Below, one piece after another: positions 104 to 41,235 of a DNA stretch of 44,151 bases. Origin of the DNA: Terramyces sp. JEL0728 (Eukaryota > Chytridiomycota > Chytridiomycetes > Rhizophydiales > Terramycetaceae); contig JADIIU010000107.1 in assembly GCA_027603945.1 (NCBI GenBank), positions 1-44,151 on the forward strand, written 5' to 3'. The position numbers and the translations under genes are program-made. Every line of letters begins with the position of its first letter. Position 1 is the first letter of the stretch. Under the pieces are notes generated by a model. It saw only the letters and a program-made list of their open reading frames with translations, had not been told where the DNA came from and made no database searches.

Positions 104-1381
104 ATGACAAAGATTTCTCGATTCGTACAGATGAATTAACCTAGTCTGCTAAAAGATTGAATTCCCTTGATCCCAACGGAACGGTATTCGCAGAGTACAC
201 TGCATTGGCAAACAAACACAAAGCTGTTAACCTTGGTCAAGGATTTCCAACTTTGCATGTTGCTGATTTCATTAGAAAGAATGCTGCAGATGCAATTGCG
301 CATGAATCTCTGGGACACCAATATACTAGATCGGAAGGACATGTCAAGCTAGTTGCAGCTTTAGCAAAATACTATTCACCAAAGATTGGAAAGGAAATCA
401 ATCCATTGACAGAAGTAATGACTACTGTTGGGGCTTCGGAAGGTAACTCGAGTGTAATGAAGCCATTTATTCCACAATTCAAGCTCTTGTCGATCCCGAC
501 GACGAAGTTATTCTAATGCAGCCATACTACGACTCTTACCCAGCATCTATCAGTCTTGCTGGAGGAAAGCCAGTCATTGTGTCTTTAAAGCCAAAAGCGA
601 ATGGCACCTCTTCCAGAGACTGGAAGCTGGATATGTCTGAATTGAAAAAGGCAGTTACAGAGAAAACAAAGATCATAATGATTAATAACCCAAATAATCC
701 TATTGGCAAAGTATGGTCCAGAGATGAGTTGATGCAGGTTGCCCAGATTGCAAAGGATCACGACTTGCTTGTTATCGCCGATGAAGTTTACGAAACTCTG
801 GTGTATTCTGATTCCGAATCGCCAATGATCAAGTTTGCTTCTTTGCCAGATATGTACGAACGCACAATTACTGTTGGCTCTATGGGTAAAATGTTTGGTG
901 TCACCGGATGGAAGATTGGATGGATAATCGCTCCTCCTGAAATCACAAGGGCAAGTTGGGTAACTCTCTTTAATGTTAGCTGGTTCATCAATTCCTGCCT
1001 TTCTCTGTGGTAACCCCATTGCAGGAAGCTGGCGCAACCTCTTTAGAAATGGCCATGTCAAATAGCTATTTTGAAGACACCACCAACACTTACCAGCATT
1101 TGCGCGACAAATTAATGAAGACCCTGAATGATGTCGGCTTCCATCCAATGAAGCCAGATGGCGGGTACTTTATAATTGCCAACGTCGCCCCTTTCAAGGT
1201 TGACGAAGATTTCTCTGCTTACTTGACGAAAACTGTCGGCGTCACATCTATTCCTATGAGAGCATTTTATCAAAAGTCCAGCCATGGAGATATTCAGCAT
1301 TTTGTCAGATTCGCATTTTGTAAAGACGAAGCTACACTCGATGAAGCAGGAAAGAGATTGGTTGGCTATTTCAAGAAATAA
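104..1381 (+). CDS. PLP-dependent aminotransferase, kynurenine/glutamine transaminase-like
   Basis: Exons 104-124, 145-442, 463-959 and 980-1381, joined by three 20-nt introns, give 405 residues. The protein is a class I/II fold aminotransferase of the kynurenine aminotransferase/cysteine-S-conjugate beta-lyase group, which moves amino groups between amino acids and 2-oxo acids. Visible family marks are the N-terminal VNLGQGFP, the NPNNPIGK loop (about residue 181), ADEVYE (about 212) and SMGKMFGVTGWKIGW, with the PLP lysine at about residue 249. The ATG at 104 is chosen because a 21-nt first exon joins in frame to MTKISRF-SAKRLNSL. The basic N-terminus could be a mitochondrial presequence. 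Without splicing the reading frame breaks at each of the three introns. Substrate specificity is not deducible. Confidence 0.9.
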
Positions 1382-1786
1382 ACGCACTATTAACCTATAT
1401 TTTTAGCCTGATTAGTTTCAAGATCAATCGCTTGCTAGTGTATTATTCCCGGCCAAACCCGAACAAATACAGGCCGTCTTGTTACTGGTCTGATGAATCA
1501 TAAAGTCCTAAATATAAATTGGTTCTGGCTCATCAACCGCTCCTCAAAACTGAACTTGTGTGACCTTACCGCACTCTGTTAATCAACAAACGCACACAGA
1601 CTTTGCTGAACTACAACTTGGAAATCAAACGGATAAATAGCATTCAAACATGATTCAAATATAATTTGATTTACTTTTTCACAACACAACTTGAATATTA
1701 TTTTCGAGAAGGGACTTGCTGTGCCACTCGCTTTAAAGAAAAAATGTAAAATCGTCAGTTTAAAAATTTTTAAGATACCCCTTGCG
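1382..1786. other. Intergenic, no gene seen
   Basis: About 405 nt between the aminotransferase stop and the ARID/Abp2-like start. It is AT-rich with scattered stops in all frames. The following reading frame is open upstream of 1787 back to about 1691 but contains no ATG there. I recognise no tRNA, snRNA or repeat. It presumably contains the 3' end of one gene and the promoter of the next. Confidence 0.6.
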
Positions 1787-2831
1787 ATGAAATTGGAAGA
1801 TGACAAATCGCTTGCTGCTCTGAACCACTTGGTACGAGCGTCCGAAGCGTCGCTGCCAACCGCTCCATCATCTCCAAATAGATTGACTTCAATTATTCCT
1901 CCAGAAGGCCCAACAAAAGAAAATTTTGAAATCATGTACGATAATTTCATTCGTACTTTCCACGACAGTGATCACTGTAGAGTGCCTGATCATATCAACA
2001 AATTCAACGATCCACCGACATATCAAAAGAAAACATTTTGTACTTTTGACCTTTATCAAATTGTGCTGGAATGTGGCGGAATTCACAAGGTAAACTGTTA
2101 CTAAACCATAGTTACAGAAATTGCCTCGACAATGGACTAATACCCAGCCAAACATGCAACCGAACCCATTGCCTAGGAATTGGACTCAGGTAGCGTCGCA
2201 ATTGGGCTACGATACCAAAGCAACCAACATTTCGTTCAGAATCAAAGAATGGCTTAGATTTCACCATATCGATGCATTCTTTGATTACTTGATGAACATT
2301 CCCCACGAATTCTTTAGCAAGCACGAAGCACATTTGGATGCGCAGAATGGAGCAAGAAATTTGATGGAGTTGGATGGGGGACCGCGTTTATTAGATGCCA
2401 ATGTTAGAAATATGCAGATTTCACTGCCATCAACGGCAAATATCCACAAACCACACTTGATTAAGCGTTATGGATTAGATCGCACTCCCGAAAGCCCGCT
2501 AACCGATGCATTAGGCAAGAAACGCTCAAGCGAGAGCATTTCATTTGATAGTACTATGCGGAAACGCTCAATGTCTAACGGGCCCGACTCGGAAAAAGAT
2601 GACGAAAAGTATGACCAATCACAGTTGATTATCAAGTTACAAAACGAAGTAACTGAGCTGTTGGCCCAAATACATAGATATGAAGATCATTTAGGTGCCC
2701 GAGACCAAAGAATTATGTTGTTGCAACAAGAATTAGACGAAAAGAACAAGCAATTGACACGTGCGGGCCAATTCAAGGAAATGATGTTGCGATACTTGGA
2801 TTTCCTTCCAAATCAAAAACCAACGCTGTAA
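1787..2831 (+). CDS. ARID/ARS-binding-protein-2-like DNA-binding protein
   Basis: Exons 1787-2089 and 2112-2831, with a 22-nt intron carrying TACTAAAC near its end, give 340 residues. The region KTFCTFDLYQIVLECGGIHK followed by WTQVASQLGY and FRIKEWLRFHHIDAFFDYL resembles the ARID-like/fungal Abp2 (ARS binding protein 2) domain, here about residues 45-175. The last 60-70 residues (about 275-335) are a heptad-rich coiled coil that could mediate dimerisation. The middle is low-complexity and basic. The likely role is sequence-specific or AT-rich DNA binding in the nucleus. Assignment to Abp2 rather than a generic ARID protein rests on remembered motif similarity and needs a profile search. The ATG at 1787 is the first in frame. 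A 28-nt intron ending at a later AG (2117) is also frame-compatible but less typical. Confidence 0.65.
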
Positions 2832-2923
2832 ACAATAAAAAAATATAGTTGACTTGTGTTAGTAATGGTATCTCTTGATATAATTGTTGGCAGATTTAAT
2901 GATTTATTAGACTTTTAGATCGT

Positions 2924-4459
2924 TCACTTGCTCAGCAACATCACTTGCTTGACGGCTTCTTTCTTTCTACTATTAGCAATGTTTACCTTTGACTTTTTGT
3001 CTTCTTTGAATGGAATGAACGACTTGCCGCCCATGTAATTGCGCAAAACCTCAGGGACATTGAAACCATCTTCAGTTTGGTAGTTTTCCAAGATACAGCA
3101 AATAGTTCTTTCAGTGGCGGTTAAGGTGCAGTTGAGAGCATGCACGTACTTTTTAGTTGTATCATTGAGCTTGGATTAGACAGCCCTTACCTTCTTTGCA
3201 CCGTATCTAATTTCAAGCTCGCGAGTTTGGTAATCAGTGCAGTTGGAGCATGATACCAATTCTTTGTAAGTGCCTTGGAAAGGGAAATACGCTTCCAAAT
3301 CGTACTTTGCAGCCGCAGCATTGTTCAGCGCACCAGATACAATAGAAATAACATGGTATGGCAAGCCCAACTAGTGTTAACGATAGGTACAGATTGATAG
3401 AATTCCTTGGCAACTTCCAGCATTTCCTTGTGCATTTCCCAGGACTTTTCTGGCTCTGTCAGACAGAATTGCTCAATTTTTTCAAATTGATGAACTCTAA
3501 AGATACCCCAGGTATCCCTACCATGCGCACCGGCTTCTTTACGGAAACAGGTAGAGGTGCCAGCATATTTCTTTGGTAACTCGCTGGCATCAGAGAACCA
3601 TTCGTTTTGGTGGAAAGCACTAATTGGCTGTTCAGAAGTAGCAATCAAATATTTGGAATCGCCTTCTTCGCCAGCTACATTATACAATGCTTCATCAAAC
3701 TCTTCTAATTGAGCGGTTTTAGCCATGATTTCTCTTCTCATAAAGAATGGAGTCCAAAGTTTGGTATATCCTTTGGATTCCAAAAAGTTTAATCCATATT
3801 GCATCAATGCCAGGTTCAAATCAACACCAGGACCGGTAAGGAAATAACCACGATGTCCAGCTACATTTGCACCTATGGATTAATAGCAAGAACCTCTGAC
3901 TGGGTCGTATCCTCCGAGCTTTTCCAATACTTCGTGGTGACTGAACAATCCAGGAACACCTTTTCCGTTCTTGATCAAATTGTCTTTTCTTGCCAATTCA
4001 TCTGCTTCAGATCGACCTTCTGGCCACCATTTTTCCAAGACTTTGTTGTCGTCTTCTGTCATTGAGTCAACAACTGAATCGTGGACAATATTTCCAATTA
4101 GTCTCAATTTTGAGTTTAAACTCTTTTCCTTTTCGTCACTTTCAGTATTTAATTTGGCTTTCAGAGCGGTGAGTTCTTCCTTCTTTTCCTTTAATGCTTG
4201 TGCTTCTGGAGAGTCCAGCTTTTTGGCTTTTGCCAGCGGTGCGATTTGTTTTCCAATATCGTTGATTTGCTTATTGACCTCATTGGCATTGAATCTAGCT
4301 TTAAATCAGAGATCAATTACATTTTTTCCATTCATCATCCAGCTGCATCACTTCATCTACCAAAGCGACCGCTTTTTCGCCTCCCCTCTTTCTCTGAGAT
4401 TCCTTTACCAAGTCTGGATTTCCGCCCTTGTCAACTCTTAACAAATTTATATCAATCAT
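2924..4459 (-). CDS. SES1: Seryl-tRNA synthetase, cytosolic
   Basis: Minus-strand exons 4459-4321, 4298-3894, 3872-3391, 3370-3191 and 3169-2924, separated by introns of 22, 21, 20 and 21 nt, give 483 residues. It charges tRNA-Ser. The N-terminus [13 protein letters not shown] and the long charged helices to about residue 115 form the tRNA-binding coiled-coil arm. The class II catalytic core shows [56 protein letters not shown] (motif 2) and [20 protein letters not shown] (motif 3). It ends with the usual short basic tail. Length matches eukaryotic cytosolic enzymes. Without the introns the frame is interrupted four times, so this gene is one of the clearest proofs of the ~20-nt intron class. 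Confidence 0.96.
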
Positions 4460-4996: not shown

Positions 4997-6583
4997 ATGA
5001 AAGAAGGCGCTCCTGAGGAGTGTAATATTAAACTAAATTAGTATCGCTAAAACGATTCGAATTACAATATATCATTGGCCAAGGCGCTTTTGGTAAAGTG
5101 AAAACCGTGATGGACAAAAAGTCCAAAAAGCAATACGCTTTGAAATATATCAACAAAGAAGAATGTATCGAAGGAAGATCTACTATAAATATATTCCGCG
5201 AACGATTAATGCTACAAACTCTATGCCATCCATACATCATTGGTCTCAGATTTGCATTTCAGGATGATATTCATTTATTCATGATTTTGGAATATGCAAA
5301 AGGAGGAGATTTGCGATTTAATATGGGAAAGCAAGCAACATTTGATTCTCACACTATCATGGTATGGGCTGCACAATTGTCGTACGCGATTGATTATATG
5401 CATGAACAAAAGATTATTCATCGGTATTTAATCATTAATCTAGTGATTTAAAGCCTGAAAACCTATTATTGGACGACCTGGGCAACCTTTACATTACAGA
5501 TTTGAATATTGCAGTATCTGTTGAAAAGAGATTCCCGTCATCCGAGTCTGGCACGTTGGATTACATGGGTACGTAACTACTAACTTTAGCCCCCGAAATG
5601 TTTACTGGACAGCCATATGGATTTTCAATTGACTGGTGGGCAACAGGGACTATCATTTACGAATGTATTTACAAAAAGAGGCCGTTTAGAGGCGGAGATT
5701 CCAACGAGGAAGTAAAGGACGCTATTATCAGCAAACCACTAAAGTTTTCAGACAAAACGGTCGATGGTGAACCAGTGCAAATGATTCCAGTACGAGAACA
5801 GCTCTTGGAACAGCTATTGGAAAGAGATGTCAGTAAAAGATTAGGGAGTGCAAATAACGGAAGAGGGTTCGAAACTGAAGTAAAAGCCCACGAGTATTTC
5901 TCCAAAATTGACTGGAGCCTCATTGCTGAGAAAAAACTGCTGCCAAATTACCATCCTAATGTAAGAAACATTAATATTAGAATGATAAAGATGCCATGAA
6001 TTTCCAACCAAACTTGTTAATCGAAGAAATGATCAATGGTGGAAGTGACGTTTCCTATCGCCCAAGAAAAAAGAAGAGAGACCCAAACAAGAAAACATTG
6101 GGGGAAAAAATTGCTGGTAGCTTTTCTAGCCTATTTTCTAAATCTCGATCAGATAACAGTATTGCACAGAAAGCTGCCAAAGTAAAGTCAAGAAAGGAAA
6201 TCGAGTTGGAGCAAATGGAAGAATATTTTGTTCCGTTTGATTACGAGCTTCCTAGCAATCCAGAAATGAATCTACCGCCTGATGCAAAGAAGGAAAAGAA
6301 GGATGAAGGTTCGGCTGGTTCAATTGAAAAAGGAGCATTTACTCCCGAAAGGGCTTCGCCGCTACGACAACACGATGATGACGATAGCAGTATGCATTCG
6401 GTTGATTCTGCCGGCTCTATTGAATTGGCGAAAAAGAGCACATTGAAGAATCACTCACCACTAAGAGACGGTTTCGAACCAGACGCGGAAGAATTCGGTG
6501 AAAAAGTCAAGATAGTAGAAGTCGACGAAACACTTCCTAATCCAACTATCCAGACGCAAACACTTCCTGGTGCTCAAATATAA
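4997..6583 (+). CDS. AGC-family Ser/Thr kinase, STK32/YANK-like (paralogue 1)
   Basis: Exons 4997-5021, 5042-5423, 5444-5568, 5590-5960 and 5981-6583 (introns 20, 20, 21, 20 nt) encode 501 residues. Kinase marks: GQGAFGKV glycine loop, YALKYINKEECI, split HR-DLKPEN at the second intron, and ITDLN in place of DFG. YANK kinases normally have DFN; this copy has DLN. Then SGTLDYMAPEM and IDWWATGTIIYECI follow. The close match to STK32 around ECIEGRSTINIFRERLMLQTL places it in the YANK group rather than PKA/PKC. A basic linker is followed by a tail with EYFVPFDYELPSNPEMNLPP and two SPLR motifs (near 6352 and 6455), shared with the other two kinases here. Substrate is unknown. Next gene starts 49 nt downstream. 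Confidence 0.93.
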
Positions 6584-6632
6584 AAAGTGATTCTAATTTT
6601 TTGTTTTCAAAATTTTTTCTTGCTAAATTTCA

Positions 6633-8676
6633 ATGGAAGAGGATTACGAATTGGATTTTTCTGATATTGAAGCGAAATATGCAGTAGATGTGCCAACTAC
6701 CTTTGATAACATTGTTGTGGTTGACAATGTTCCTGTTGTCGATGAAACCAAGGAAGAAAAGCTGTTGAAAGTTATCAAGAAAATATTCAGTTCAGCAGGT
6801 GCAATTAAGGACATCACCATGCCAAAAAATCCTAATGGCAAATCCAAGGGGTAACGCTTACTAATCAAGGTTCCTGTTTATGGAATTCGAAAATGGTGCA
6901 GAAGCAGCAAAAGCAATTGCAACTCTCGATGGCTACAAAATGGACAAGACGCACATCCTCGCCGTGTCTAAATTCGACGAAATTGAAACTTATGCGTTAT
7001 TAAATGATGAATTCGAAGAAGCTCAAATTGAACCATACGCTGAAAAGGAGCATTTGAAGTCCTGGCTCTCAGATCCAAAAGCTAGGGACCAATTTGCCAT
7101 CATGAAAGGTGACGAAGTAGGCATCTACTTCAATAACAAATCCGAATCCCCTGATAGATGCCAGGTTAAAAACAATTGGTCCGACCTGTTCATTACATGG
7201 TCTTCTTACGGGTCTTACTTTGTTACTATCCACAAGCAAGGCATCGCACTATGGGGTGGCCCTAGCTGGCAAAAAATCAACCGATTTCCACATCCAAATG
7301 TCACTATGGTGGAGTTCAGTCCAAGAGAAAACTATGTTTTGACTTGGAGTTATGAAGCCTTCAAAACCCCTGAAGGACAATTCCACGTATTTTTCTTCTA
7401 ATATTAGAATCTGTGTATCTGGGATGTTAAAACCGCCTCGTTAATTCGTTCTTTCCCAACCCCTGCAACTGCAGACAAGTCTGGGAAAGAAAATGTGTTT
7501 TTCAAATGGTCACACGACGACAGTTACATTGCCAAAATGACTACTGGTGCGCAAGGAGCGCTCAGTGTTTATGAATTGCCATCTATGGGTCTTTTGGACA
7601 AGAAAAGTATCAAAGTTGAAAACCTTGTGGACTTTAACTGGTCTCCAACTGAAAATGTAATTTCGTACTGGACTCCAGAACTTGGAAACATCCCTGCTCG
7701 TGTTACTATTGTCAGCATTCCGTCAAGGAATGTTGTTAGAACCAAGAATTTCTTTAATGTTATTGGATGCAAGCTGTATTGGCAATCGAATGGGGACTAC
7801 TTGCTTGTCAAAGTTGATAGAACCAAGACCAAGACTACTACCATCACTTCGTTTGAAGTATTCCGTATGAAAGAAAAGGATATCCCTGTTGATGTTGTTG
7901 AACTCAAAGTTACGGAAGAATTGAATGAATTGTATTGGGAACCAATGGGTAACAAATTTGCCATTCTGCTAACCGAAAACAACAATCAAACCCTCAACTT
8001 TTACGAAGTTCAGTCAAAGAGTGCTGCGACAACTGCAATCGGCGTCAAACACCTGAAGCAATTGGATGCAAAAGGGTTCAGCAATGTCTTTTGGTCACCT
8101 AAAGGCCGCTTCTGTGTGCTTGCTGGTTTGAAAGGCATGTCTGGAACCTTGGAATTCTGGGATACTGAAGATTTTACCAAATTGGGAAGCGGCGAACACT
8201 ATATGTGCACTGATATTGAATGGGATCCTACTGGTCGTTATGTCGTTACTTCTGTTTCTTACTGGAGAGTACAGAATGATACTGGATTGACCATGTGGAC
8301 ATTGTCTGGACAGGAGTTGACCAAGCAATACATTACTGGCTTCAGGCAATTTGCATGGAGACCTCGTCCGCCAACTCTACTCTCCACCGAAGACCAAAAG
8401 AAACTCAAGAAGAGCTTGAAGGACTTTTCTAAGCAGTTCGACGAAGAAGATGCTTTGGAGTCCAACAAGGCGTCTGTTGAAGTTCAAGAAAAGCGTAAGG
8501 CGCAATGGAAAGAATACAAAGCCCTTTTGGCCAAATTCCAAGCAATCAAGGACGGCGAAAGAGAAGAAAGAGTTGCAGTGTATGGCTTTGATCCAGAGGA
8601 AGTCAGTGAAGATGTGGAAGAAGTCGAAGAAACCATTGAAGTGGTATTGGAAGAAACTGAAGAAATTATTGAATAA
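6633..8676 (+). CDS. PRT1: Translation initiation factor eIF3 subunit b
   Basis: Exons 6633-6850, 6870-7386 and 7408-8676 (19- and 21-nt introns) give 667 residues. It is a scaffold subunit of eIF3 on the 40S ribosome. The N-terminus is acidic. An RRM (about residues 20-105) with IVVVDNVPVV and KGFLFMEF spans the first intron. The rest is a WD40-type beta-propeller with family strings DQFAIMKGDEVGIYFNN, FFKWSHDDSYIAKM, LYWQSNGDYLLVKVDRTK and EWDPTGRYVVTSVSYW. The C-terminal helical acidic tail (LKKSLKDFSKQFDEEDALES onward) is the expected eIF3i/g-binding region. It is about 100 residues shorter than yeast Prt1, mostly at the N-terminus. The ATG at 6633 is the first in frame. Confidence 0.95.
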
Positions 8677-8714
8677 ACATTTCATCTATAAAGTAAAAAT
8701 TCGCGCTTGAGATT

Positions 8715-8724
8715 TTGACGCGTT
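8715..8724 (+). promoter_or_regulatory. TTGACGCGTT element before the RSP4/6 start
   Basis: TTGACGCGTT lies 6 nt upstream of the ATG at 8731. The identical 10-mer occurs before the Tubby (22258) and tectonic (37720, opposite orientation) genes. The core ACGCGT equals the fungal MluI cell-cycle box. A regulatory role is inference from position and recurrence. Confidence 0.5.
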
Positions 8725-8730
8725 TTAGAA

Positions 8731-10494
8731 ATGGCAGAAGGCGAACAACAAAATGGAAATGGCACAAACCCTCCAGCATCACTATTTTCGGACGATAACG
8801 ATTTTTGGCAAGCAAAGAATCTTCTGAATACAAAAATGGGAGTCAAAGCACCAATTAATCTCTACGACCATCTTACAAATGTAATAATGCATGCTATGGA
8901 AACCAAAGCTTCAAATGTTGTCGGTATATAGAATTTTATCCTAGACAACTTTGAGCAATTATCATTGGATGTAAAGAAACAGCTATTCACTCTTGATGAA
9001 TCATTGCCAACTTCCATTAAAATTGGAGGCGAAAGACATTTGGAATATGAAAGCATCAAACAAAAGATTTCCTTTTACAAAGTATTCCAGCTTTAACATG
9101 AGAAACCTGCTGAAGAGGCAGCGGATGGCGAAACAGGAGATTTCCCAGACATGATGGATTTGGCAAGCTTGTGGGAATGGGCTGGAGTACAAATTGCTAA
9201 TCAAAGGTTTCTTTTGGCAACGAAGACACATTTTTATTATTCCTCGCCATTAAAAATTTAGTGGAAGTAAAGCAACTCAAATCAGTAAGATTATGGGGAA
9301 AAGTCTTTGGCACTCATGAAAATTATACAGTCGTCGAAGCAGAGTTAAAAGAAGGAGTAGCGGACGACGAAGATGCTATTGTTAACGCTGAGGATGTAGA
9401 AGAAAAGGACGATGGTGCTGTTCCTGCTCCTAAAGATGATGATGATTCAGCTCCAGTACCAAAAACCAAACAAATGGCACCCTTAGGCAAAGAATTAAGA
9501 GCCGGTGTAAACAAATACATTTACTATGTTTGCACCTCTGGTGATTCGTAGCTAATTATAGTTGGCGGACAATGGACAAGACTGCCAGATGTAGTGCCAG
9601 AGAGATTGCAAGAAGCTCGAAGAATTAGAAAATACTTTACAGGTAGTCTGAAACACAAGGTTAATTGTGGTTAATTTAGATTGTGTCCTTCCCAGAATTC
9701 AAGGGCAATGAAGCTCAGTACTTGAGGTGTCAAATTGCAAGAATCTCTGCAGCCACAGTGGTATCGCCTAAAGGATACTATATGATTGACCCTGAAGCAG
9801 AAGAGCTTGAAGAAAATAATGGTATTAAACTGCTGACGTAAGGTAATCCGCCAATTATCATCAACCCAGAATACGAAGGGTTGACCAATGAACAGCTAAC
9901 TATGTCTGCAAACTGGGTCCACCATGTGCCATATATTTTGCCTCAAGGTAGATGTAATTGGGAAGCACCCAAAGTCCTAAAGGAAGAGGTAGAAGGCGAA
10001 GAAAAAGAGGAGGAGGAGGAAGAAGAGCAAGATGACGAGGCAAACGCAGCAGAACCTGAAAGCGGTCCATCATTACTTGGCGTTCTAACCTCGGATGACG
10101 GTACTATAAAATTAAAATAGATCATGGAACTATTGCTGCTTGGTCGACTAGAGTGTGTTCTCAATTGTCTCCAACGAAATTCTCCCCAGTCTGTTTAAGA
10201 TCAAATTACTGGCCAGGAGCTCAAACGATGGCGTACAATGATAAATTTGCAAATATTTACATTGGAGATGGCCTTAAAGATTTAGGTAATCCAGAACAGA
10301 ACTTTGTTCCGCCTGCTCTAGGCCCAATTCAAAAAGAATACACCATTCCGGAAGGTGTGGAAATTTCTTTGTCTGAGCAATTGGATCCTACTGTTGAAGC
10401 AGAAGAAGCCTATGAAGAAGAGAAGAGAGCTAAGGATGACGAAGGCAAAGAGGAACAAGAAGGCGAAGAAGCTGAAGAAGGGGAAGACGAGTAA
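8731..10494 (+). CDS. Flagellar radial spoke head protein RSP4/6
   Basis: Eight exons (8731-8923, 8945-9081, 9103-9186, 9207-9540, 9562-9659, 9680-9821, 9843-10100, 10121-10494), separated by seven 20-21-nt introns, give 539 residues. RSP4/6 sits in the head of the axonemal radial spokes that contact the central pair in motile 9+2 flagella. Family marks: [27 protein letters not shown] at the start, [42 protein letters not shown], an acidic insert, [71 protein letters not shown] and [13 protein letters not shown]. The C-terminus is strongly acidic. Its presence shows the organism builds a motile flagellum. It is the most intron-dense gene here together with kinase 2 and GID7. Confidence 0.96.
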
Positions 10495-10537
10495 TATAAT
10501 TTTTTTATGCTTCTTGGATCTATTTATTCATAATAAT

Positions 10538-11020: not shown

Positions 11021-11052
11021 AAAAAGGGAATATTTTTCGGCGCATTGTTAGA

Positions 11053-13187: not shown

Positions 13188-13221
13188 ACATAATTTAATC
13201 CAATAAAAAAAGTTTGTCCAC

Positions 13222-13557
13222 ATGCTGCAATCTCGTTTTCCATGTGTTTTAAAGAGAGGACATCATTTCATGGTGGTCTTGAAAGACTATCCGAACGCAA
13301 TTGAAAAGCGGTTAGCTGCAAGACCTGCTCATTTAGAGAGAAATGCGAAATCAAAAGAAATTGGGTTTTCGTTACTTGGCGGAGCGATATTGAACAATGA
13401 ACAACAAATGGTAGGAAGCATAGTATTATTTGATGCTCCTTCGAAAGAGGTATTAGAAGAGTATATCAAGGAAGATCCATATTTTAAGCAGCAGGTTTGG
13501 GAAAAGTGGGAGATTTATCCATTCAAAATTGCAGGAGTGTCCAAATATTTAAAATAA
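13222..13557 (+). CDS. YCII-domain protein
   Basis: An intron-less ORF of 111 residues. The ferredoxin-like YCII fold is suggested by HHFMVVLKDYPNAIEKRLAARPAHLE, a central LLGGAILN, GSIVLFDAPSKEVLEEYIKEDPYF and a C-terminal strand, the standard arrangement of this small family. The conserved Asp in KEDPYF and the His in PAHLE are the residues usually conserved as a putative active site. Biochemical function is unknown even in well-studied species. It is packed 34 nt after the CNBD gene and 29 nt before kinase 2. Confidence 0.85.
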   Translation: MLQSRFPCVLKRGHHFMVVLKDYPNAIEKRLAARPAHLERNAKSKEIGFSLLGGAILNNEQQMVGSIVLFDAPSKEVLEEYIKEDPYFKQQVWEKWEIYPFKIAGVSKYLK

Positions 13558-13586
13558 ACAAAACAATTTAGACATTTTTATCGCTT

Positions 13587-21700: not shown

Positions 21701-21730
21701 TGAAAAATTGTAAAAAATACATCTATTTAT

Positions 21731-22267: not shown

Positions 22268-22274
22268 TACTATA

Positions 22275-31436: not shown

Positions 31437-33068
31437 TTATTTAAAGTCTCGCAAGATCATAATGATAAGGTCAACCCTATGGCTCTGTATGCTCAATCTA
31501 CTCTTCAATTGCTCTAAATCTTCTAGTATCTTCAATTCACCCTCGCTCAGCTTTGCTTCTCCTGATCTGATATCGCTACGGTTGGCTTTTTGCAGCAAGA
31601 GCTTTTTCCGACTGACTTCGTACAATTGTCGGTTATGGAGCCTATGGATAGTTTTGATTCCATTTTGGATCAAGATTTCTGTGGTTTTCTTGACGTCTGC
31701 ATACCAGAGGAATAACGTACGAGAAGCTGAGTGATCAATGGTCTTTGGAACATCCTACATTTAAAAGACAAATACTTGCATAAATACAAAGCCATCCTTT
31801 AGCATTAGGTATAGTAGCTTCCTTGCCTCCTTTTCATCAACAAGCGCGAATTTTGACACCTACATTAGCTGAGGTTACATTCTTGTCATCCAACTTTTTT
31901 TTCTCTCTTAGTAATCTCCACAGCCTGCAGGCTACGCTTCCGTACTTTTCCTTGATTGTATTTTCTATGATATTCACTCTAATATCTTCACACACTTTTT
32001 TCAATGGAACCAAATACTGCCCACCACCACTTTCATCACTTTTTTTGAATATTTGATCTTGCTCTTGTGACATTATTTCCATATATTCCGCCAGAGGGTT
32101 CGTAACTGGGCCTTGAATTGTGTCAAGGTTAATTTCAGGGTTTTTTGCTACTTCTATAGACAATGTCATTACTGAAACAGATTCTGTTGATTCATGGCTG
32201 TTTCTAGTCCTGTTTCCCACTACGCCAAAGAATGTTTTTAGAATTTGACTTGCAGTGGTGTTGTATACTGCTTCAACAAACGAAACCAAATACAAATTCC
32301 TGAAATGCGTATGGAACTGCTTGTAATTCACTTTATAGCAAGTGCTGTCTTCTAGCTTGATCTGGAATTAGTTGCAATTACCATTTTGTTTGGCTCATCG
32401 TCCATCATTAGCATTCTCTTTTTTCCTTGCTTTAATTCTTCTCCTTGAATTCTATCTGCAGCCAGTTTAGCTCGCAGCTTCTTCATCTCGGTGCTTGTGA
32501 GAATCCCAGCCTTTTCCACAGCATCTTTTTCTTGTTGGATATAAATATCCGACAGTGTGTTTTGATCTTGTGCAGATACTTCGACAATGTAACTGTGCTG
32601 TAGTAATGTGTGAATACTGCTCTGCATGTCTTCTTCTGAATAATCCAACAAAGAAACTAAATCCACTGCTTGTAATCTGCCATAACTCAGTAATTGCTCC
32701 ACCACCATCGATGTCTATATTAATTATCGGGTACTTGTAGATCATATCCACCTTCGATCAAATTGATGTAAGCAGCAAACCTTTTTCGCTCCAATATATT
32801 TTCAATTGACACTTGATAATACACACTATTCCGCCCTCTTTCAATTACTTGGGTATAGGTGGCAATATTGTGCTGGATGAGAATTGCTAAAGATTCCCGT
32901 ATTAATTTCTGTGGTAATTCGAGTTCTTTCTGGAGTTTGGACAGTGTGGATCTGCCTTTTGCAATTAATTTCGTGGTGACCGCCTTTGTTAGTGGAATGT
33001 ACTTGGATAATTGGGCCGAAATCGTGGTCTATTATATCTTTGCATAAATCAATTGCATACAGGGACAT
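31437..33068 (-). CDS. RPC82: RNA polymerase III subunit C82/RPC3
   Basis: Exons 33068-33003, 32983-32735, 32714-32382, 32361-31879, 31859-31776 and 31754-31437 (introns 19, 20, 20, 19, 21 nt) give 510 residues, close to human POLR3C (534). Repeated winged-helix domains: LIAKGRSTLSKLQKELELPQKLIRESLAILIQHN with IERGRNSVYYQVSIENIL, MVVEQLLSYGRLQAVDLVSLLDYSEED, CYKVNYKQFHTHFRNLYLVSF (the conserved W/Y-x-x-N-x-x-x-F motif), and the C-terminal FALVDEKEARKLLYLMLKDGFVFMQDVPK and SRTLFLWYADVKK, then a coiled coil. C82 with C34 and C31 opens promoters of tRNA and 5S genes. Confidence 0.93.
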
Positions 33069-33287: not shown

Positions 33288-34119
33288 CAATTGTTCCTTC
33301 AGGTTCATTGAGTTCGTATAATGGTATTTCCAAGTTGAGAGGAGCAGGCCCTTTTCTAATACGGCCTGAAATATCATAGTGAGAACCATGGCAAGGGCAG
33401 AACCAACCACCAAAATCACCGGCTACAATTAATCTTCAATTACATTCGCCGACAGGAACACAACCCAAGTGAGTACAGACACCAATCATAACCAACCATT
33501 TTGGATCCTTGACACGATCGGAATCTGTTTCCTTGTGACGAAGTTCATCCAAATTTACTTGATTGGCTTCGGCAATTTCTACATTAAAAATATAAACCTT
33601 CATCGGTACGATGTCTAATAAAAACTGGCTTTCCTCTCCACTTTAAAACAATATTTTTCCCTTCAGGGATTGTATCCATCTTGATTTCAACTTTTGATAA
33701 TGCCAAAACGTCAGCAGATGCTGATAAATTGTACAAGAACCCAGTGACGAGATTCTTTGCTGCCATTGCCCCAACAAAACTCAAACTTCCAACCAAGAAA
33801 TAAGCACCGTTTCTGGATGCTTGATCATCATAGTTTGACAAATCCTTTTTATAATAATCTTGTTGTTTTGGCGGTGAAGTGATGTGAGTTTTATCTGTTG
33901 CTACTGAGACTGGACCAGCGTAATATCTTTTTTGGAATGATTGTTGTAATGGTGCTATATTAATTTAGCTGTACCTACAAAATTCGTTTTTAATGAGACT
34001 TGTCCATTCAAAAGCGTTGCCTTGCCTCCGATTGCTTTTTGCGCGGTGGTTAATTTAGCAGTTGCAAGACGCTGAGTAGGACTGATAAAGGTTGTGCGCA
34101 ATACGTTTCCTGCTGACAT
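33277..34119 (-). CDS. RIP1: Rieske iron-sulfur subunit of the cytochrome bc1 complex
   Basis: Exons 34119-33975, 33954-33598, 33578-33444 and 33422-33277 (introns 20, 19, 21 nt) give 260 residues. It transfers electrons from ubiquinol to cytochrome c1. The N-terminus is a presequence. [23 protein letters not shown] leads into the single TM anchor and the hinge [19 protein letters not shown]. The 2Fe-2S site shows CTHLGC and CPCHGSHYD, completed only when the 21-nt intron between VPVGE and SGDFGGWF is removed. [16 protein letters not shown] and [10 protein letters not shown] are also standard. Its presence proves an aerobic cytochrome pathway, unlike microsporidia. Confidence 0.96.
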
Positions 34120-34318: not shown

Positions 34319-36229
34319 TTAAAACTCGTTCAAATACTGTTTAAACTCTGATAAATCACCTGCAACACCAGCTTCACCAGCTTGCCGTTCAATATCTGCA
34401 ACGTCCAACTCAAACGTTTTTTTGAGCAACTGATTCAGTTCGGTATCAGTAGAAGCCTTTCTATTCATCTTCCTTACCAATTCTTGCGTTTTCTTGAATG
34501 AAGATAGAGTTTCCTTGCCTTTCTTAGTGTACAGGGCAAGTATTTCCTTGATGATGATTGATTTCCATTCGGATTCCATTACTGGTTGGAAAATATCTGT
34601 AAGGAATGGTGATACTTCAGCTGTCTTGTTTGAAGATTTTAAATTAACAGGAATATTTTGAACTTTTGTACTAAATCGTCCAAAGATCTGTTGTGTCATT
34701 AAATTGATTATCTCTTCCCTGATTGGTTCAACTGGAACATCATCCAAGATTCCAAAGTACACATTTTTCGTGTATTCAAGCGATGCATCTACCAGATTCA
34801 ACTTAGCAGCCATATTTCCAAAGAATTCCTTCAACTAAAGTCAGTAAGAGTTACTCTATCCTGCACTTGTTTAATTTCATTGTACAAGGTGTTTAATTTT
34901 TCAAATTCTTTAGGCTGTTCAATCAAAGAAGTGTATCTCTTGATCAGCAACAAAGTGGTCTTCCAAAAGCGATGTCCAATACTGAAAATATAAACATCTT
35001 CACTCCAGAGCCGTTCCAGCGCATTCAATAAAGCTAAGTTGAAAAACAAAATACCTGTGTGTTTCTCTTCTTCCTTTTCAAAATCACTAACTATATCATT
35101 ATGGCATAATTGAAAGTAAACAGACAATTGCCATCGCTTTTGGTACTCTTTGAAAATCTCTTCATCAACTTGGGGTTTCAGTTTGTCTATAAAATATGTG
35201 CTCTTTTTGTATATTTGATGAAAAGATTTTGGATCGACTACCTGGAACATTTGCTTATTTTTCATTAGTGAATTCAAGATTGGCTTCAATATCTCTTGCA
35301 ATAGATTGTAATTGCAACCTTTGAATGCTGTCATAGATGTATGAACAATACTAGAGAGTCTAGTTTCAATCAGCGATAAAATTGATTCGAACGATGGATC
35401 TTTTTGCAGGAATGCAAGTAGGATTTGATTGATTATCTTGTCTGCAATAGTTACTTGGTCAATCGTGACCAATATTCTAAACAATTCCAGTAATTCTGGA
35501 TTGTCAATCTGTTCTGGGGCAGTTGGAGTTCCCAGTGTACTAACTACTGCAGGAGCGGGAACAATGCTGGACTCTGTCGTTGAAATTGCACCGGTGACTC
35601 CAATGACCGAGTTGCGCTTTTCATCATCTTCGAATGAATCCAGATCAATCAACTCTACTAGAATCTTGTTCAAATCAACACTAATCTGATCAACAAACTT
35701 TTTCTTTAATTGCAGGTTCTTGCTGCCGACCAATTCTGCATTCATTGTATTTTTCTTGATCAAGTATTCCAGCTGATTAAATTCAATCGATATTCTTGCA
35801 GGTTGATTGTCATTCAATAGTGATTCAATTTTAGTAAACGATTCATGAATGTTCAAGTAATTTGATAGTGTTTGTTTCTGCTGTTTTATATCATTCTTTT
35901 TCATCAATTGCGACTTCAAGTGAATTATTCGTTCATCGTATTCTACATTAACATTAATCACCTCTTGTTTTCGATTTGTATTCTTCCTTCAAGTTCAGCA
36001 GCGGTTTCTTTAGTTCGTAAATTAGAGTGTCCATTCCAACCAAATTCAAGGACAGGTTAATGAATAATTGGTAATCATTGTTTATCAGCTGGTACAGTTC
36101 TTGTTGCAGCTGCCGTGATATTTTGCTCAGCTCCTCAATCATCTTTTTGTTTGGTATTTGCTTTCTGCTGTTGATAAACTCTACCAACTCAAATTCATCA
36201 TTGAAATCTGTGATTTTCAATTCGTTCAT
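34319..36229 (-). CDS. COG2: Conserved oligomeric Golgi complex subunit 2
   Basis: Exons 36229-35962, 35942-34855 and 34834-34319 (introns 19 and 20 nt) give 623 residues. COG2 belongs to lobe A of the COG tether for retrograde traffic within the Golgi. The family N-terminus is clear: ELSKISRQLQQELYQLINNDYQLFINLSLNLVGMDTLIYELKKPL, matching the COG2 Pfam segment (INxDYxxFxNLSxNLVGMD). The rest is almost entirely helical, as in other CATCHR tethers, with LYWSVYF-like blocks (KRWQLSVYFQLCHNDI) and a C-terminal DUF3510-like region (GRFSTKVQNIPVNLK ... MESEWKSIIIKEILALYTKKGK). About 110 residues shorter than human COG2. Confidence 0.88.
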
Positions 36230-36302: not shown

Positions 36303-37497
36303 TTATTTTACAAGCTTCTTGTCTTCTCTCCTCATTGGATAATGAACGGTTTGTTTCCGAGTCTTTGGATTGATAAATGAACTATTAATTAAAAATGCGT
36401 ACTTTTGCCCAGGCCGAGGCTGTTCAAGGAAATACGGATGCTTCAAAGCATTCTCGGCGGATATCCTCTTGTGTGGATCGTATTCAAGCATAAGCGACAT
36501 TAAATTAAACCCGCTCTCGTTCTTTGGGAAATAGGTTTGGTGCTGGTAAAGATGCTTTAGATTGTTCTGTGTATTGTGTTTCAAAGTTTTCAGCTTTTCA
36601 TATTCTGGCATGAACTCTACTTCTTGCCAACGATCATCTACATTAAGGAATTTTACTTGTTGGGAATCCTAGTACATCAATGATTTTTGTGAGTTGATCT
36701 TTTTGGAATGGGATTGTTTTCTTTGCGTCCATCTTTGCCTCGTCTCCCTTGAATAATGGTTTAAGCATCAACAGTTCTGCAAAAATGCATCCAGTTGCCC
36801 AAATGTCAATTCCCTTTGTATAGTGACGTGAACCCAAAAGCAGCTCTGGAGCACGGTACCATATAGTTACTACAACTTTATCACCATGGTACAATGGATA
36901 AATAGGAGCTTGGAACAGCCTTGCCAACCCCAAATCCGCGATTTTAACTATTCCATCGGTAGTAACAAGAATATTCGCAGGCTTCAAATCTCTATGCAGC
37001 ACCCAATTATTATGCATGTACGATACGCCATTTAATATCTGCCACAGGAATGATTTCACAGTGTATTCTGGTATCCCTTTTCGTTCCGTTTGCAAGTGGT
37101 GCTGTAAAATTTGGAGTAAATCATGTTCCGCATAGTCGAATACCATTGCTATTGATCTATCTGATGGGTCAAGAATGACTTGCTCTAGAAATACGATATT
37201 TTCATGCTTCATTTCTCTGCACAGCGCTATTTCTCTGCATGCCGATTGCGAAATACCGCTTGATAAGGCTGCTTCGCCCTCCTTGTCTGGCTTGAATTTC
37301 TTTATCGCATAGATTTTAGGGTTTCCGTTCTTTTTAGTTGCTTTAAAGACATTTCCATAAGTTCCGGATGAAATAAAGGAAATGGTATTGTATTGGCTTG
37401 ATATTGGTATTCTTTCCTTGTCTTTTTTCTGTTTAAATATCTTGTATTGGTCTAGTTTTGCCTTATTTAACTGCATTGAACTCTGGCTGGAATCCAT
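36303..37497 (-). CDS. SSN3: Mediator-associated cyclin-dependent kinase CDK8/Srb10
   Basis: Exons 37497-36657 and 36637-36303 with a 19-nt intron give 391 residues. CDK8 with cyclin C forms the Mediator kinase module. Diagnostic: SGTYGNVFKATKK, KKFKPDKEGEAALSSGISQSACREIALCREMKHENI (the SACRE helix in place of PSTAIRE), FDYAEHDLLQI, HRDLKPANILV, ADLGLARLF, a long activation loop with VVTIWYRAPELLLGSRHYTKGIDIWATGCIFAELL, then GFPTNDRWQEVEFMPEY and the C-lobe DPHKRISAENALKHPYF. Only the C-terminal regulatory tail is shorter than human CDK8. Start ATG at 37497; the 8 codons before it have only a TTG. Confidence 0.95.
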
Positions 37498-37743: not shown

Positions 37744-39859
37744 ATGGCAAATATAATTCGAGTTGCACTGCTACGAACAGCACTGGCAAATGCAATTCTC
37801 GATAAACGAGGTTCAAATCAAACTTCCTCAGTTAGTCCAATTACAGCTACAAATAGCTCTGCTAACATCACACAAATCGCTCAGTCAACCACAACGATAG
37901 ACAACAAACCTTCAACCGTCGACACTACAGCTTCCTCAACAGGCACTTCAGCCCCAGACGTAATATTTGTACACGGTCACAGAGAAATGTCAGATTTCAA
38001 CGAGACCTTGGGTATAGTATGGTCCAACGCAGTAACATCGAAACCGCTAACAAACTGGAACAGAGATATTTCAATTTGCTCTTGTGATTTGACATTTAAT
38101 CAATGTGATCCTAATTGCTGTTGCGATACGGATTGTATGACAAATGGAGATGAAGCATCGTATTTCACTGGGTGTCAGACTACTGCTCAGACCGTTTTAC
38201 CTTTCTGTTCTAGTTACTTGGACAAAGTCACTTGGGCTGATGGAGTGAAAATCAAGACTATACCGGCTCTAGGAGGCGGGCTATGTGTTGTGTATGTGAA
38301 CTGTAAGAAAGGTTCTAACGTAGCGGCTGTCAAAGGTGATTTTTTTGAAGATGTTGGTACTTTTACGGATGACACATCGTTCACCACTCAATATAAACAA
38401 GGATTGTATTTAACCAGCAGAGCAACATACGATGTCGTAGCCAATATATCAGTTTTGGCATACAAGGTATTCCAGTTGTAATGTAGTACGGCGACAGAGT
38501 CCAAGTATTTTATCCTACCATAAACCAGTACGGCTACATGACGTTACCAGTTACAACAAATCCCACTTGTTCAAACAAGGATATATTACGTAAATCCCAT
38601 CTAATAGTAGCCGTTATGATGAACATTAGAAACACTTGCAACCAACTGATTACATCTAATTCATTGTGTGCAAATGGAACTGTTTTTGATTTTAAATATT
38701 ACACAGACGGGTTTACGGTTGTAGGGGTACAATTATTTTTATGTTAGGATCCAAGTGCGACATCTTCACCCGTACCAATCACTACCAGTTTCATGTGTAT
38801 AGATCCGATCACTAACGTGGCCACTAGTTCTTGTTCAAGCCTACCAACATCTCCTAGCCCAACATTATCGAACGGAGTGTGTTCAAACATGGTTGTAGAA
38901 GTGGCATTAGTATTCACGTACCAAATCGTCACATCTGTTCTGACTTTAACTGCCTTGGACATGACTATTGTATTTGATTCACAGACCTTTAGCAATTCGA
39001 TCAAACAGACATTTTCAGTTCAATATGTCGCTCAAGGAGCAACGAATGTGTACAGTAGATCAGGCAACCCTGGGTATATTTACGGTCTTCCGGTCTTGGC
39101 AGGATTGCAAGTTAGTCAAGGCTCAGCAAACGCAATTTCAATGAACGCTGATCCACAATTTGGAATTACATTACTTAAAGATGTTGCACAAACATCGACC
39201 GTCGGCTGTCCAAACACTTTGACTGATTACGGAAACAGATCACCAGTTACGTTTGGTGAAAACACAATATCTGGGTGTACGCTATGGTTGACCAGGAATG
39301 ACTTGCTAAACAACTGCGATTCACTTCGGTCTAGAATATACAATTTACAAACACTCACTGCCAGGAACATTGATTCAGTTGGGATGTTTGGAAACGCCAG
39401 CACGACAAATGTATTTGATTGGATAAAGATAATAAACAACCCACCAAGTGCAATCACAGGGGCTGTTAGCTCGGTAACATGATTTAATATTAGCCTGGAA
39501 CTAGCTTTGGCATTTGCTCAAATTTACTAACTAGTTTTAATGTAGAGTTTTTGTACAGTAGTTATGGATCCACCACGCATCCACAGCATGCAATTGTTGG
39601 TGCTAGGTACAGCTATACTCCTGGGACATTTGGATGGACGTGCGATTCAGTGCGAGACTGTGTTGACCCAAATATTTATTCGGCTGGCACAGAAACAATT
39701 ACAAATATCGGAACTGCTAGTAAGCCATTCCAATTATCCAGCACGGTCTCGTTTGTTCAAGTTTCTACTCTAACTTCTAGTTTGTACATTCCACCTCCAC
39801 CAAAGATATACGCAGAACTACCAGATGATATATGGTACCCATTCAGTATTCCAACTTGA
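37744..39859 (+). CDS. Tectonic-like ciliary transition-zone protein
   Basis: Exons 37744-38466, 38487-38589, 38611-38726, 38748-39473 and 39494-39859 (introns 20, 21, 21, 20 nt) give 677 residues. Tectonics belong to the MKS/B9 module that gates entry into cilia. The cysteine signature ISICSCDLTFNQCDPNCCCDTDC (about residues 115-137), then TGCQ...PFCSSYL, YGDRVQVFYPTINQYGYMTLP and TCSNKD, matches the tectonic family (DUF1619). Later segments with spaced cysteines and PQHAIVGARYSY also fit. A Thr/Ser-rich N-terminal region follows a weak hydrophobic start that could be a signal peptide; no clear C-terminal TM. The 38590-38610 intron has no in-frame stop, so retention would add seven residues. 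The third intron has a second GT 6 nt upstream. Confidence 0.85.
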
Positions 39860-39887
39860 TTATTCAGTTTATTTAAATATAAAACTA

Positions 39888-41235
39888 CTAGTTTTTGAGT
39901 AATGAGAGCATTTCGTCTTTGCTTGTGATTTTTTCTCTTATTTTGCCTGCAGGTTCACCTCTTTTGATTTCTTCCCTGTCTAGTTTCAAATAATCGTCAA
40001 ATGTAGTCGCGCCAGCAATATCTATAGCACAGTCTAATTGAGTGATAATGTACCTGGTTTTTCTTCAAATAGCGGGATATCCTGAACGATTGATCTGCAT
40101 GTCTCTTGGGCATCATATAAAGTAGCAGCAATTTCCCCTCGTCCAGTTTTAATCCAGCCGGCAGTGTACAATCCTGGAACAATGTTTCCATTCTGTATTA
40201 AATAAAAAAGTACATTATCAAATACTCTTCCCTGGGAATTTGGAATTGTCTTGAAATTTGGGTTGAACGGAACTCCGTCCACTTGCTCTCCTTCGTAGCC
40301 AATACTCTTGATAACTAATCCACAAGGAATATATTCCTGCTCCTCTGTCTGTTTCACTCTGCCATTAACTAGAATATTCTTTGCCAGCCTGACACCAACT
40401 ATTTTGTTGTTTTCAGATACAATTTCAATTGGCGATTTCCAAAAGTGCAATTCCAATGATTTTTCGAATTCGCCCTTCTTTTGTTTTGCCATTACCTGAA
40501 CTAGACGGCTGAGAGGTCTATTTTCAATCTTTGACAGCATTTCCTTGTTCTCTTGCTGTACTTGCGCAATCAGTGGATTTGGAGTGTACCCAATATCCTT
40601 TGCTTGTAACTCGCGAACTTCTTTTGTTGTGAAACTAACTTGAAGTACTCCTCTTCTTCCAACTACATGGACTTTATTAATTTTGCTGTTTTTCAATACT
40701 TGCAGTGCTGATTGTGAGATATCTGTTTTGTCAAAATCGTCCGCTAATAATAACCTGGTACAATCGATTGCAACATTTCCTTGGCCAATAATAACCGCAG
40801 TGTCTGATTGTAAATTTGGATGAACTTGGCAATCAGGTTCTCCGTTATACCATCCTACAAAATCTTTTGCAGAGAATACGTTTGGAGAATCCTCTCCTTT
40901 TATTCCCAACTTCTTGTCATATTTAGAACCAGTTGCCATTATAACTGCGTTATAACTCTTTAATAATTTGTCAATTGAAATATCTTTTGGGACTTGAACG
41001 TTTCCAATGAACTTGAAATTTTCATGACTAGCAATTTGAGTGAATTTGTCCGTTACATTCTTTACTGATTGGTGATCCGGAGCTACTCCATATCGTACTA
41101 ACCCGAAAGGAAATATTCTTTGCTCCAGCATTGTCACTTTGAATCCTTCTTTCAAGAGGCTTTGGGCTGTATAAAAACCAGCTTTGTTAGCCATTATTTA
41201 CCAGGTCCTCCTCCTACAATGCAAGCTCGCAGCAT
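39888..41235 (-). CDS. ARH1: Mitochondrial NADPH-adrenodoxin (ferredoxin) reductase
   Basis: Exons 41235-41202, 41181-40054 and 40033-39888 with two 20-nt introns give 435 residues. This FAD enzyme passes electrons from NADPH to mitochondrial ferredoxin for Fe-S cluster and heme A synthesis. The FAD Rossmann motif IVGGGPAGFYTA is assembled across the first intron. Then FGLVRYGVAPDH, IMATGSKYDKKLGIKGED, VFSAKDFVGWYNGEPD, VIIGQGNVAIDCTRLLL (NADP motif), HVVGRRGVLQVSFTTKEVREL, KSIGYEG, GLYTAGWIKTGRGEIAATLYDA and the C-terminal EEIKRGEPAGKIREKI follow. The start leaves almost no presequence, so import may use an internal or very short signal. It lies convergent to tectonic, 28 nt between stops. 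Confidence 0.95.

Follow-up and report, generated by a model that had tools for sequence, protein, structure and literature searches.

Nucleomorphs, heterotrich ciliates and mikrocytids have served for studies of how short introns can be, and the complete contig 107 (44,151 bp, hereafter the window) of the fungus Terramyces sp. JEL0728 raises the question of whether an entire set of genes can be interrupted by spliceosomal introns of only about 20 nucleotides (nt). A preliminary description of the window had proposed this for a gene set that it called flagellated, aerobic and opisthokont-like, which fits the source organism, a chytrid (Terramycetaceae, Rhizophydiales, Chytridiomycota; Boothiomyces macroporosus belongs to the same family). 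Our analysis indicates that the segments are very probably U2-type spliceosomal introns that a largely ordinary spliceosome would cut out, 386 of the 411 predicted ones being 19-22 nt long, their splicing being what we infer from the sequence.

Genome sample and gene prediction

The assembly comprises 15,016,339 bp (15.0 Mb) in 231 contigs. The window was analyzed together with 20 stretches of 10 kilobases (kb) from 19 other contigs, a sample of 244,151 bp on 20 contigs that represents one species and covers 1.6% of its genome in detail. Genes were predicted by two-strand dynamic programming, from a coding Markov score, start codons (ATG), stop codons and GT..AG introns. Under a flat length prior, codon statistics gave noisy results and fused neighbouring genes when introns of up to 300 nt were allowed, and for this reason we adopted an iterated model, in which a motif was learned from the first introns and the gene models were then refined; its length prior favours 19-22 nt. 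Besides, 29 further loci obtained from other searches, some of them overlapping or duplicated, provided an extra sample of 160 introns.

Number and length of the predicted introns

The final model placed 85 introns in 25 of the 31 predicted genes of the window, 82 of them 19-22 nt long, in agreement with the approximately 80 introns, nearly all of this length, that had been claimed. Lengths of 19, 20, 21, 22 and 23 nt occurred 17, 39, 21, 5 and 1 times, together with one intron of 24 nt and one of 43 nt, compared with an earlier tally of 17, 38, 16, 5 and 1 plus one intron of 25 nt and two composites. The individual examples given at that time (5569-5589 at M^APEM of a kinase, 33423-33443 at VGE^SGDFGGW of the Rieske protein and the seven introns of a radial spoke protein of the RSP4/6 type; ^ marks the junction) were recovered exactly.

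Across the 244-kb sample, 396 of the 411 predicted introns measured 18-24 nt and 394 measured 18-23 nt, while lengths of 16-17 nt were absent from the 411 introns of the final model. Longer introns did not predominate in the 20 stretches from the 19 other contigs, and 144 of the 160 introns in the further loci were also 19-22 nt long. Of the complete genes with at least 100 residues, 102 of 127 contained introns; the density was 2.81 introns per gene, or 2.16 for each kb of coding sequence, and a simple extrapolation (396/244,151 x 15,016,339) gives about 24,000 introns genome-wide. Overall, features of the sequence support the spliceosomal nature, number, length and near-minimal character that had been proposed for these segments.

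Tests against chance

The length class was also obtained when it was not favoured by the model. With a flat prior of 12-120 nt, only GT..AG demanded and no motif, 91 of 183 introns measured 17-25 nt in a first pass with a stricter penalty, and 139 of 312-314 did so in later passes with a laxer penalty, the mode being 20 nt in each case. A flat length of 14-120 nt combined with the motif placed 305 of 370 introns at 18-24 nt. Moreover, when all 256 dinucleotide pairs were substituted for GT/AG at lengths of 12-60 nt, GT-AG placed 72 of its 139 introns in the 19-21 nt class, whereas the other 255 pairs averaged 6.4 and reached at most 26; we read the counts of the runners-up (TA-GA, 26; TA-GG, 24; GG-TA, 24) as the same segments one base off.

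Additionally, the segments are biased towards the sense strand. Within the motif-free set of introns of 18-24 nt, the branch motif YTRAH lay 3-9 nt from the end in 74 of 95, compared with 460 of 4119 (11%) antisense GT..AG segments of the same lengths. Around open reading frames of at least 150 codons that had been located without introns, a strict motif gave 71 sense and 7 antisense segments at 20-22 nt (79 and 24 over all of 20-27 nt). The GC content was 31% in introns and 40% in coding sequence. Precise excision of the segments re-established the reading frame and the conserved protein, and the spliced proteins had a Pfam match in nine of ten cases, several of them spanning nearly the whole profile. 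Excision of the predicted introns left a single intron in place of 411, a partly circular control to which we give little weight.

Intron anatomy and the two spacings

The 396 introns of 18-24 nt share a recognizable structure. The donor approximates AAG|GTA(A/T)(T)T; position +3 is A in 88%, whereas position +5 is G in no more than 20%, and the leading forms are GTAATT (46) and GTATTT (31); acceptors are TAG (249), CAG (85), AAG (56) and GAG (6), and phases 0, 1 and 2 are represented by 182, 134 and 80 introns. U12-type (minor) introns carry an RTATCC donor; GTATCC opens just 5 of the 396, in a final set that modelled GT..AG introns exclusively and in which AT-AC introns were not looked for. 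All 396 introns differ in sequence, 20 nt being too short to decide on Introner-like copying.

A YTRAY-like branch motif (chiefly TTAAT, CTAAT, TTAAC and CTAAC; scored as YTRAH) occupies the usual place in 313 introns, and in 264 of these the branch A stands at nt 14 or 15 and is followed by a tail of 5 or 6 nt. Within this motif-scored set the combinations 14/5, 14/6, 15/5 and 15/6 number 70, 65, 73 and 56, figures that fit independent spacings (Fisher p 0.46), and the product of the two spacings predicts 73, 132 and 59 introns of 19, 20 and 21 nt, where 70, 138 and 56 were observed. Intron length thus appears to result from two spacings that act as rulers, each taking one of two values almost independently of the other, which gives lengths close to 1:2:1 for 19:20:21 nt.

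Paralogs, homologs and public gene models

Three tandem kinases of the window (K1-K3, 4997-17187) allow the same site to be compared among paralogs. A phase-2 intron at HR^D is common to all three, with lengths of 20, 21 and 21 nt and unlike sequences, while the M^APEM site holds 21 nt in K1, 22 nt in K2 and cleanly no intron in K3. The sites before IMY and before NPF carry 20-nt introns in K2 and K3 that are cleanly absent from K1, and the GK^V intron occurs in K2 only. One-base length differences at the same codon, together with clean absences, would not be expected of coding sequence, and the differing presence of introns makes K1-K3 well suited to dating when introns were gained or lost.

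Homologous proteins provide further evidence. Junctions were checked in three genes, using 29 of the 50 hits listed for RSP4, 18 of 120 for a WDR26-like protein and 12 of 120 for fibrillarin, and at most junctions the homologs continue straight across at conserved sites. For the fibrillarin methyltransferase junctions 17907 and 17713, the flanks are 92% and 98% identical with zero indels in 12 homologs. Five of the seven WDR26 junctions are indel-free across the 16-18 covering homologs and the other two have indels in 3; five of the seven RSP4 junctions have indels in 0-2 of 28-29 homologs.

Public gene models agree with ours for at least two Terramyces proteins in GenBank. The spliced RSP4 model, with its seven introns removed, is 100% identical over its full 539 residues to Radial spoke head protein 4 A [Terramyces sp. 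JEL0728], the next-best match being that of Boothiomyces macroporosus (86%), and the fibrillarin of Terramyces sp. JEL0728 is 100% identical over the 308 modelled residues, the GenBank model having 321. By comparison, no Terramyces-named protein was found among the best 120 of 1365 hits of the WDR26-like model, and therefore not every gene of the window seems to have a public model; that of the WDR26-like gene may be missing or mis-spliced.

Back-to-back introns

Some introns appear to adjoin each other without an intervening exon. Pairs of motif-passing segments bordered by AG|GT numbered 7 in sense and 0 in antisense orientation, among 423 sense and 104 antisense segments overall; two of the pairs lie in fibrillarin, one in locus L014 and four in L031. 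Both fibrillarin pairs are on the minus strand (18146-18188, 22+21 nt; 18252-18296, 21+24 nt), and a 65-nt segment of locus L030 (6502-6566) can be divided by eye into 22+22+21. The two fibrillarin cases fared differently when compared with GenBank: all 43 nt of 18146-18188 are omitted there, as in the present model, whereas the combination of 18276-18296 with 18252-18275, a composite of the preliminary description, is ambiguous, GenBank keeping the first 21 nt (18276-18296) as coding. Stepwise removal of such introns and their removal as one are both possible, and both halves look complete.

Spliceosome components and proposed mechanism

The main parts of an ordinary spliceosome can be recognized in the genome. 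U2 RNA (140 bits) has an intact GUGUAGUA region, and U5 RNA (86 bits), Prp8 (PROCN domain, 774 bits), SF1, Cwc25 and Isy1 are encoded, together with SF3A3 in the window and a U2AF65-like gene whose own model contains four introns of 19-20 nt. The start of Cwc25, MGGGDLNLKKSWHP, is identical to that of human CWC25, and because this plug is intact, a 14-15 nt loop would not depend on its loss, provided that splicing proceeds as proposed here. The Isy1 model, which is weak, does not align to human ISY1 before residue 38 (to that of C. elegans before residue 33).

As a separate observation, the 5' end of Isy1 (L045, 1963-2027, minus strand) seems to contain three tiny introns with exons of a few bases between them, and its N-terminus is uncertain.

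In the mechanism that we propose, GUAGUA of U2 would pair with the branch site, the branch A would attack the 5' end so that a lariat with a 14-15 nt loop forms, and the 3' splice site would be the AG located 5-6 nt past the branch A. Longer ancestral introns may have shrunk to the least size accepted by this spliceosome and may then have been held there. A more far-reaching version is that the whole set of about 24,000 introns stands at a physical limit of the spliceosome, where a loop of 14-15 nt and a tail of 5-6 nt act as rulers independently of each other, with an intact Cwc25 plug and hence no need for Stentor-type remodelling, and that stepwise 20-nt splicing events take out zero-length exons (AG|GT, up to three introns in a row); we advance this version tentatively, as a possibility somewhat more doubtful than probable.

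Alternative explanations

Several observations weigh against the interpretation of these segments as U2-type introns at a uniform minimal length. Fifteen of the 411 introns fall outside 18-24 nt, and 16 of the 160 introns in the further loci fall outside 19-22 nt (five of 15-17 nt, namely two of 15 nt and three of 17 nt, and eleven of 37-62 nt); 83 of the 396 have no YTRAH at the usual place. The score gain of GT-AG in the dinucleotide test (774) was exceeded by six AT-rich pairs (783-794), which we attribute to their having more sites, and the best 3-nt length window of those pairs held 13-25 introns compared with 72 for GT-AG. The four spacing classes are unevenly filled in the motif-free set (14, 21, 22 and 7), perhaps in part through poor detection of stop-free 21-nt introns, and independence of the spacings therefore rests on the motif-scored set, whose own model took the 3' end as its point of alignment. 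Indels occur at certain junctions of variable regions: the three in the GAR repeat of fibrillarin have them in 2 of 8, 8 of 10 and 9 of 12 homologs and permit no judgement, and the remaining RSP4 junctions have them in 9 of 28 and, at a variable linker, in 25 of 28. The GenBank gene models are probably predictions themselves. Among the spliceosome components, the U2AF65-like match (252 bits, exon by exon) lies under its family cut-off of 310 bits. For U1 there was no Rfam match in the genome, a control likewise giving no signal, and four matches to the canonical U1 5' end against 12 for the reversed control could not be read. A U6 search found two weak, near-identical copies on different contigs (27 bits, cut-off 44; L010 1501-1606 and L011 1501-1605) that keep ACAGAGA but lack the AGC triad and have an altered stem, probably a U6-derived repeat, and a BLAST search of the U6 consensus against the genome found nothing.

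The outlying lengths bear on the possibility that the introns are real but accompanied by a sizeable second class of ordinary introns of 40-300 nt that was missed or mis-modelled. When introns of up to 300 nt were permitted, 146 of 399 predictions fell outside 18-23 nt, and the flat run of 14-120 nt placed 62 of 370 at 25-120 nt. A few long predictions have good ends (for example L012, 9507-9552), and the eleven of 37-62 nt may be added. In the 300-nt run, however, the remainder was scattered, with at most four per length, and many of these introns fused neighbouring genes in the window; the 62 introns were likewise scattered and formed no second mode. Excision of the 411 predicted introns left nine predictions at 14-120 nt, none of them short, a result that is partly circular, and within the 25 intron-bearing genes of the window no intron exceeds 24 nt apart from one composite. 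A large second class is thus unlikely. It is very unlikely that retention is common and the segments are mainly regulated poison sequences acting through intron retention and nonsense-mediated decay. Retention would bring an in-frame stop in 253 of 396 introns, and in 77 of 100 of the 21-nt class compared with a three-phase average of 63%, but this excess is the artefact expected of a gene finder to which stop-free segments of 3n length are hard to see, and we set it aside as detection bias. The segments also lie inside catalytic motifs (HRD, APE) and housekeeping genes, and their regular removal would therefore be needed for function. That they are decayed sequence, errors of the assembly or insertions eliminated from the DNA ahead of expression is hardly conceivable, given the GT..AG ends with a branch site, the sense bias, their occurrence on 20 contigs, the exact presence and absence among paralogs and the intact genes on both sides.

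Comparison with known ultrasmall introns

The interpretation as spliceosomal introns can be placed among previously described systems, for which we draw on excerpts of the cited papers. The preliminary description had named chlorarachniophyte nucleomorphs and Stentor, which are indeed comparable, together with microsporidia, which were wrongly included, and it omitted the mikrocytids. Nucleomorphs of Bigelowiella, Lotharella and Amorphochlora have GT-AG introns of 18-23 nt, most commonly 18-20 nt, at 2.6-3.2 per gene in three of four species, and two exceptional introns of 40-41 nt were explained as fused ultrasmall pairs with a relict central AG (PMC4494063). Terramyces resembles them in length class, GT-AG borders, introns per gene and the fused-pair-like cases of 43 and 65 nt. 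Nucleomorph genomes are, however, relict endosymbiont nuclei of about 373-612 kb with 332-636 genes (PMC4494063), unlike the 15.0-Mb assembly of this fungus, which carries genes for flagella and respiration and, as extrapolated above, about 24,000 introns.

In Stentor coeruleus, introns of 15-16 nt with a 10-11 nt loop and a 5-nt tail occur in 18% of genes, Cwc25 is without the GGG plug, a loss proposed to make room for a sharp loop, and the N-terminus of Isy1 is reported as non-conserved (PMC9505925). The narrow length class, the tail (5 nt compared with 5-6 nt), Prp8 and an unalignable Isy1 N-terminus, for which the Terramyces model is weak, are points of likeness, whereas the 14-15 nt loop, the intact Cwc25 plug and a length class other than 15-16 nt set Terramyces apart. 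The parasitic mikrocytids (Mikrocytos mackini, Paramikrocytos) have introns of 16-17 nt with a highly conserved sequence and a reduced spliceosome, with 224 predicted introns in the M. mackini genome (PMC10245619). Terramyces shares with them near-minimal, tightly constrained introns, but its motif is loose and introns occur in 102 of 127 complete genes. Microsporidian introns are described as few and relatively short (PMC10245619), not as a uniform class of about 20 nt. Type B introns of Trichomonas (about 23-25 nt) are alike in shortness and in a CTAA branch motif near the 3' end, but they are few, with 24 in T. vaginalis beside a long class (PMC12316389).

Among fungi, the excerpted text of a survey of 644 genomes regards the introns of Cryptococcus neoformans, with their mean of 63 bp, as relatively short, and a class of about 20 nt is not named there (PMC8476143). 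Chytrids are considered intron-rich in that survey, with a current mean of 3.93 introns per kb of coding sequence for two species (PMC8476143), compared with 2.16 in Terramyces, where the commonest length is 20 nt. In the excerpt of a Rhizophydiales genome paper the single mention of introns concerns a software setting (PMC13391722). No description of 20-nt introns in a chytrid was present among the literature matches listed, which does not prove novelty; we call Terramyces a further lineage with ultrasmall introns, one that is new and experimentally better placed.

If this is true, a chytrid in which the main spliceosome parts are recognizable would make the lower limit of intron length testable, including the spliceosome changes that accompanied shrinkage, the role of loop and tail as separate rulers and the cutting of 20-nt introns by ordinary fungal spliceosomes. 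Relatives with public protein sets (Boothiomyces, Globomyces, Batrachochytrium and Synchytrium) are available for comparison. Besides, RNA mappers and gene finders that assume a larger minimum intron length would break Terramyces genes.

Genes of the window

The 25 intron-bearing genes are given below with intron lengths (nt) in parentheses. The ARID-, eIF3B-, cyclic-nucleotide-binding-, ALG13-, OTU-, sugar-isomerase-, CDK8- and adrenodoxin-reductase-like genes bear names that are our assumption.

104-1381, plus strand: aminotransferase class I/II; introns 125-144, 443-462 and 960-979 (20 each); PF00155 at 214.8 bits with the spliced protein
1787-2831, plus strand: presumably ARID-like; intron 2090-2111 (22)
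2907-4459, minus strand: seryl-tRNA synthetase; introns 2967-2986 (20), 3170-3190 (21), 3371-3390 (20), 3873-3893 (21) and 4299-4320 (22); PF00587 and PF02403, full profiles with the spliced protein
4997-6583, plus strand: protein kinase K1; introns 5022-5041 (20), 5424-5443 (20, HR^D), 5569-5589 (21, M^APEM) and 5961-5980 (20); Pkinase match and paralogs
6633-8676, plus strand: presumably eIF3B-like; introns 6851-6869 (19) and 7387-7407 (21)
8731-10494, plus strand: radial spoke head protein 4/6; introns 8924-8944 (21), 9082-9102 (21), 9187-9206 (20), 9541-9561 (21), 9660-9679 (20), 9822-9842 (21) and 10101-10120 (20); PF04712 at 469 bits, GenBank RSP4A
11053-13187, plus strand: presumably cyclic-nucleotide-binding-like; introns 11986-12005 (20), 12403-12421 (19) and 12589-12608 (20)
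13587-15375, plus strand: protein kinase K2; introns 13701-13720 (20), 14044-14064 (21, HR^D), 14190-14211 (22, M^APEM), 14274-14293 (20), 14321-14340 (20), 14605-14624 (20) and 15232-15250 (19); PF00069 at 212 bits, profile 2-262 of 263, first 353 residues
15493-17187, plus strand: protein kinase K3; introns 15954-15974 (21, HR^D), 16162-16181 (20), 16209-16228 (20), 16511-16530 (20) and 17021-17041 (21), none at V^APEM; Pkinase match
17293-18351, minus strand: fibrillarin; introns 17713-17732 (20), 17907-17928 (22), 18084-18106 (23), 18146-18188 (43, as 22 + 21 back to back) and 18252-18275 (24, adjoining the intron-like 21 nt 18276-18296); GenBank fibrillarin
18673-19275, minus strand: Ras-family GTPase; intron 19201-19221 (21); PF00071 at 200.7 bits
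19385-19635, minus strand: small gene; intron 19508-19527 (20)
21218-21700, minus strand: presumably ALG13-like; intron 21594-21614 (21)
21723-22034, minus strand: small uncertain gene; intron 21870-21890 (21)
22275-24340, plus strand: unnamed gene; introns 22447-22468 (22), 22786-22805 (20), 23594-23612 (19), 23829-23848 (20), 23991-24009 (19) and 24191-24209 (19)
24416-25576, plus strand: presumably OTU-like; introns 24780-24799 (20) and 25045-25063 (19)
25791-26590, minus strand: presumably sugar-isomerase-like; introns 26003-26021 (19) and 26190-26208 (19)
26882-28328, plus strand: splicing factor SF3A3/Prp9; introns 28114-28133 (20) and 28283-28302 (20); PF11931 and PF16837
29467-31139, minus strand: WDR26-like; introns 29595-29613 (19), 29680-29699 (20), 30295-30313 (19), 30592-30611 (20), 30710-30729 (20), 30867-30885 (19) and 31037-31056 (20); named chytrid homologs 43-61% identical
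31437-33068, minus strand: RNA polymerase III subunit RPC82; introns 31755-31775 (21), 31860-31878 (19), 32362-32381 (20), 32715-32734 (20) and 32984-33002 (19); PF22536, PF08221 and PF05645
33277-34119, minus strand: Rieske iron-sulfur protein; introns 33423-33443 (21, VGE^SGDFGGW), 33579-33597 (19) and 33955-33974 (20); PF00355 at 35.5 bits
34319-36229, minus strand: unnamed gene; introns 34835-34854 (20), 35034-35054 (21) and 35943-35961 (19)
36303-37476, minus strand: presumably CDK8-like kinase; intron 36638-36656 (19); Pkinase match
37744-39859, plus strand: unnamed gene; introns 38303-38323 (21), 38467-38486 (20), 38727-38747 (21) and 39474-39493 (20)
39888-41235, minus strand: presumably adrenodoxin-reductase-like; introns 40034-40053 (20), 40193-40213 (21), 40475-40495 (21) and 41182-41201 (20); PF07992 at 47.6 bits, residues 4-205

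An assignment of the gene at 29467-31139 to SMU1 was dismissed, its homologs being WDR26-like. The intron-free gene at 19667-20611 (minus strand) encodes a product that resembles a seven-helix receptor, with no Pfam match at 1e-6. Elsewhere in the genome, the loci L042 and L043 (C30 and C33) are nearly identical (99.2% over 3.1 kb), and kinase matches on C18, C26, C42 and C3 recur about 29-62 kb apart on one contig; these near-identical regions are possibly haplotypes or recent duplications.

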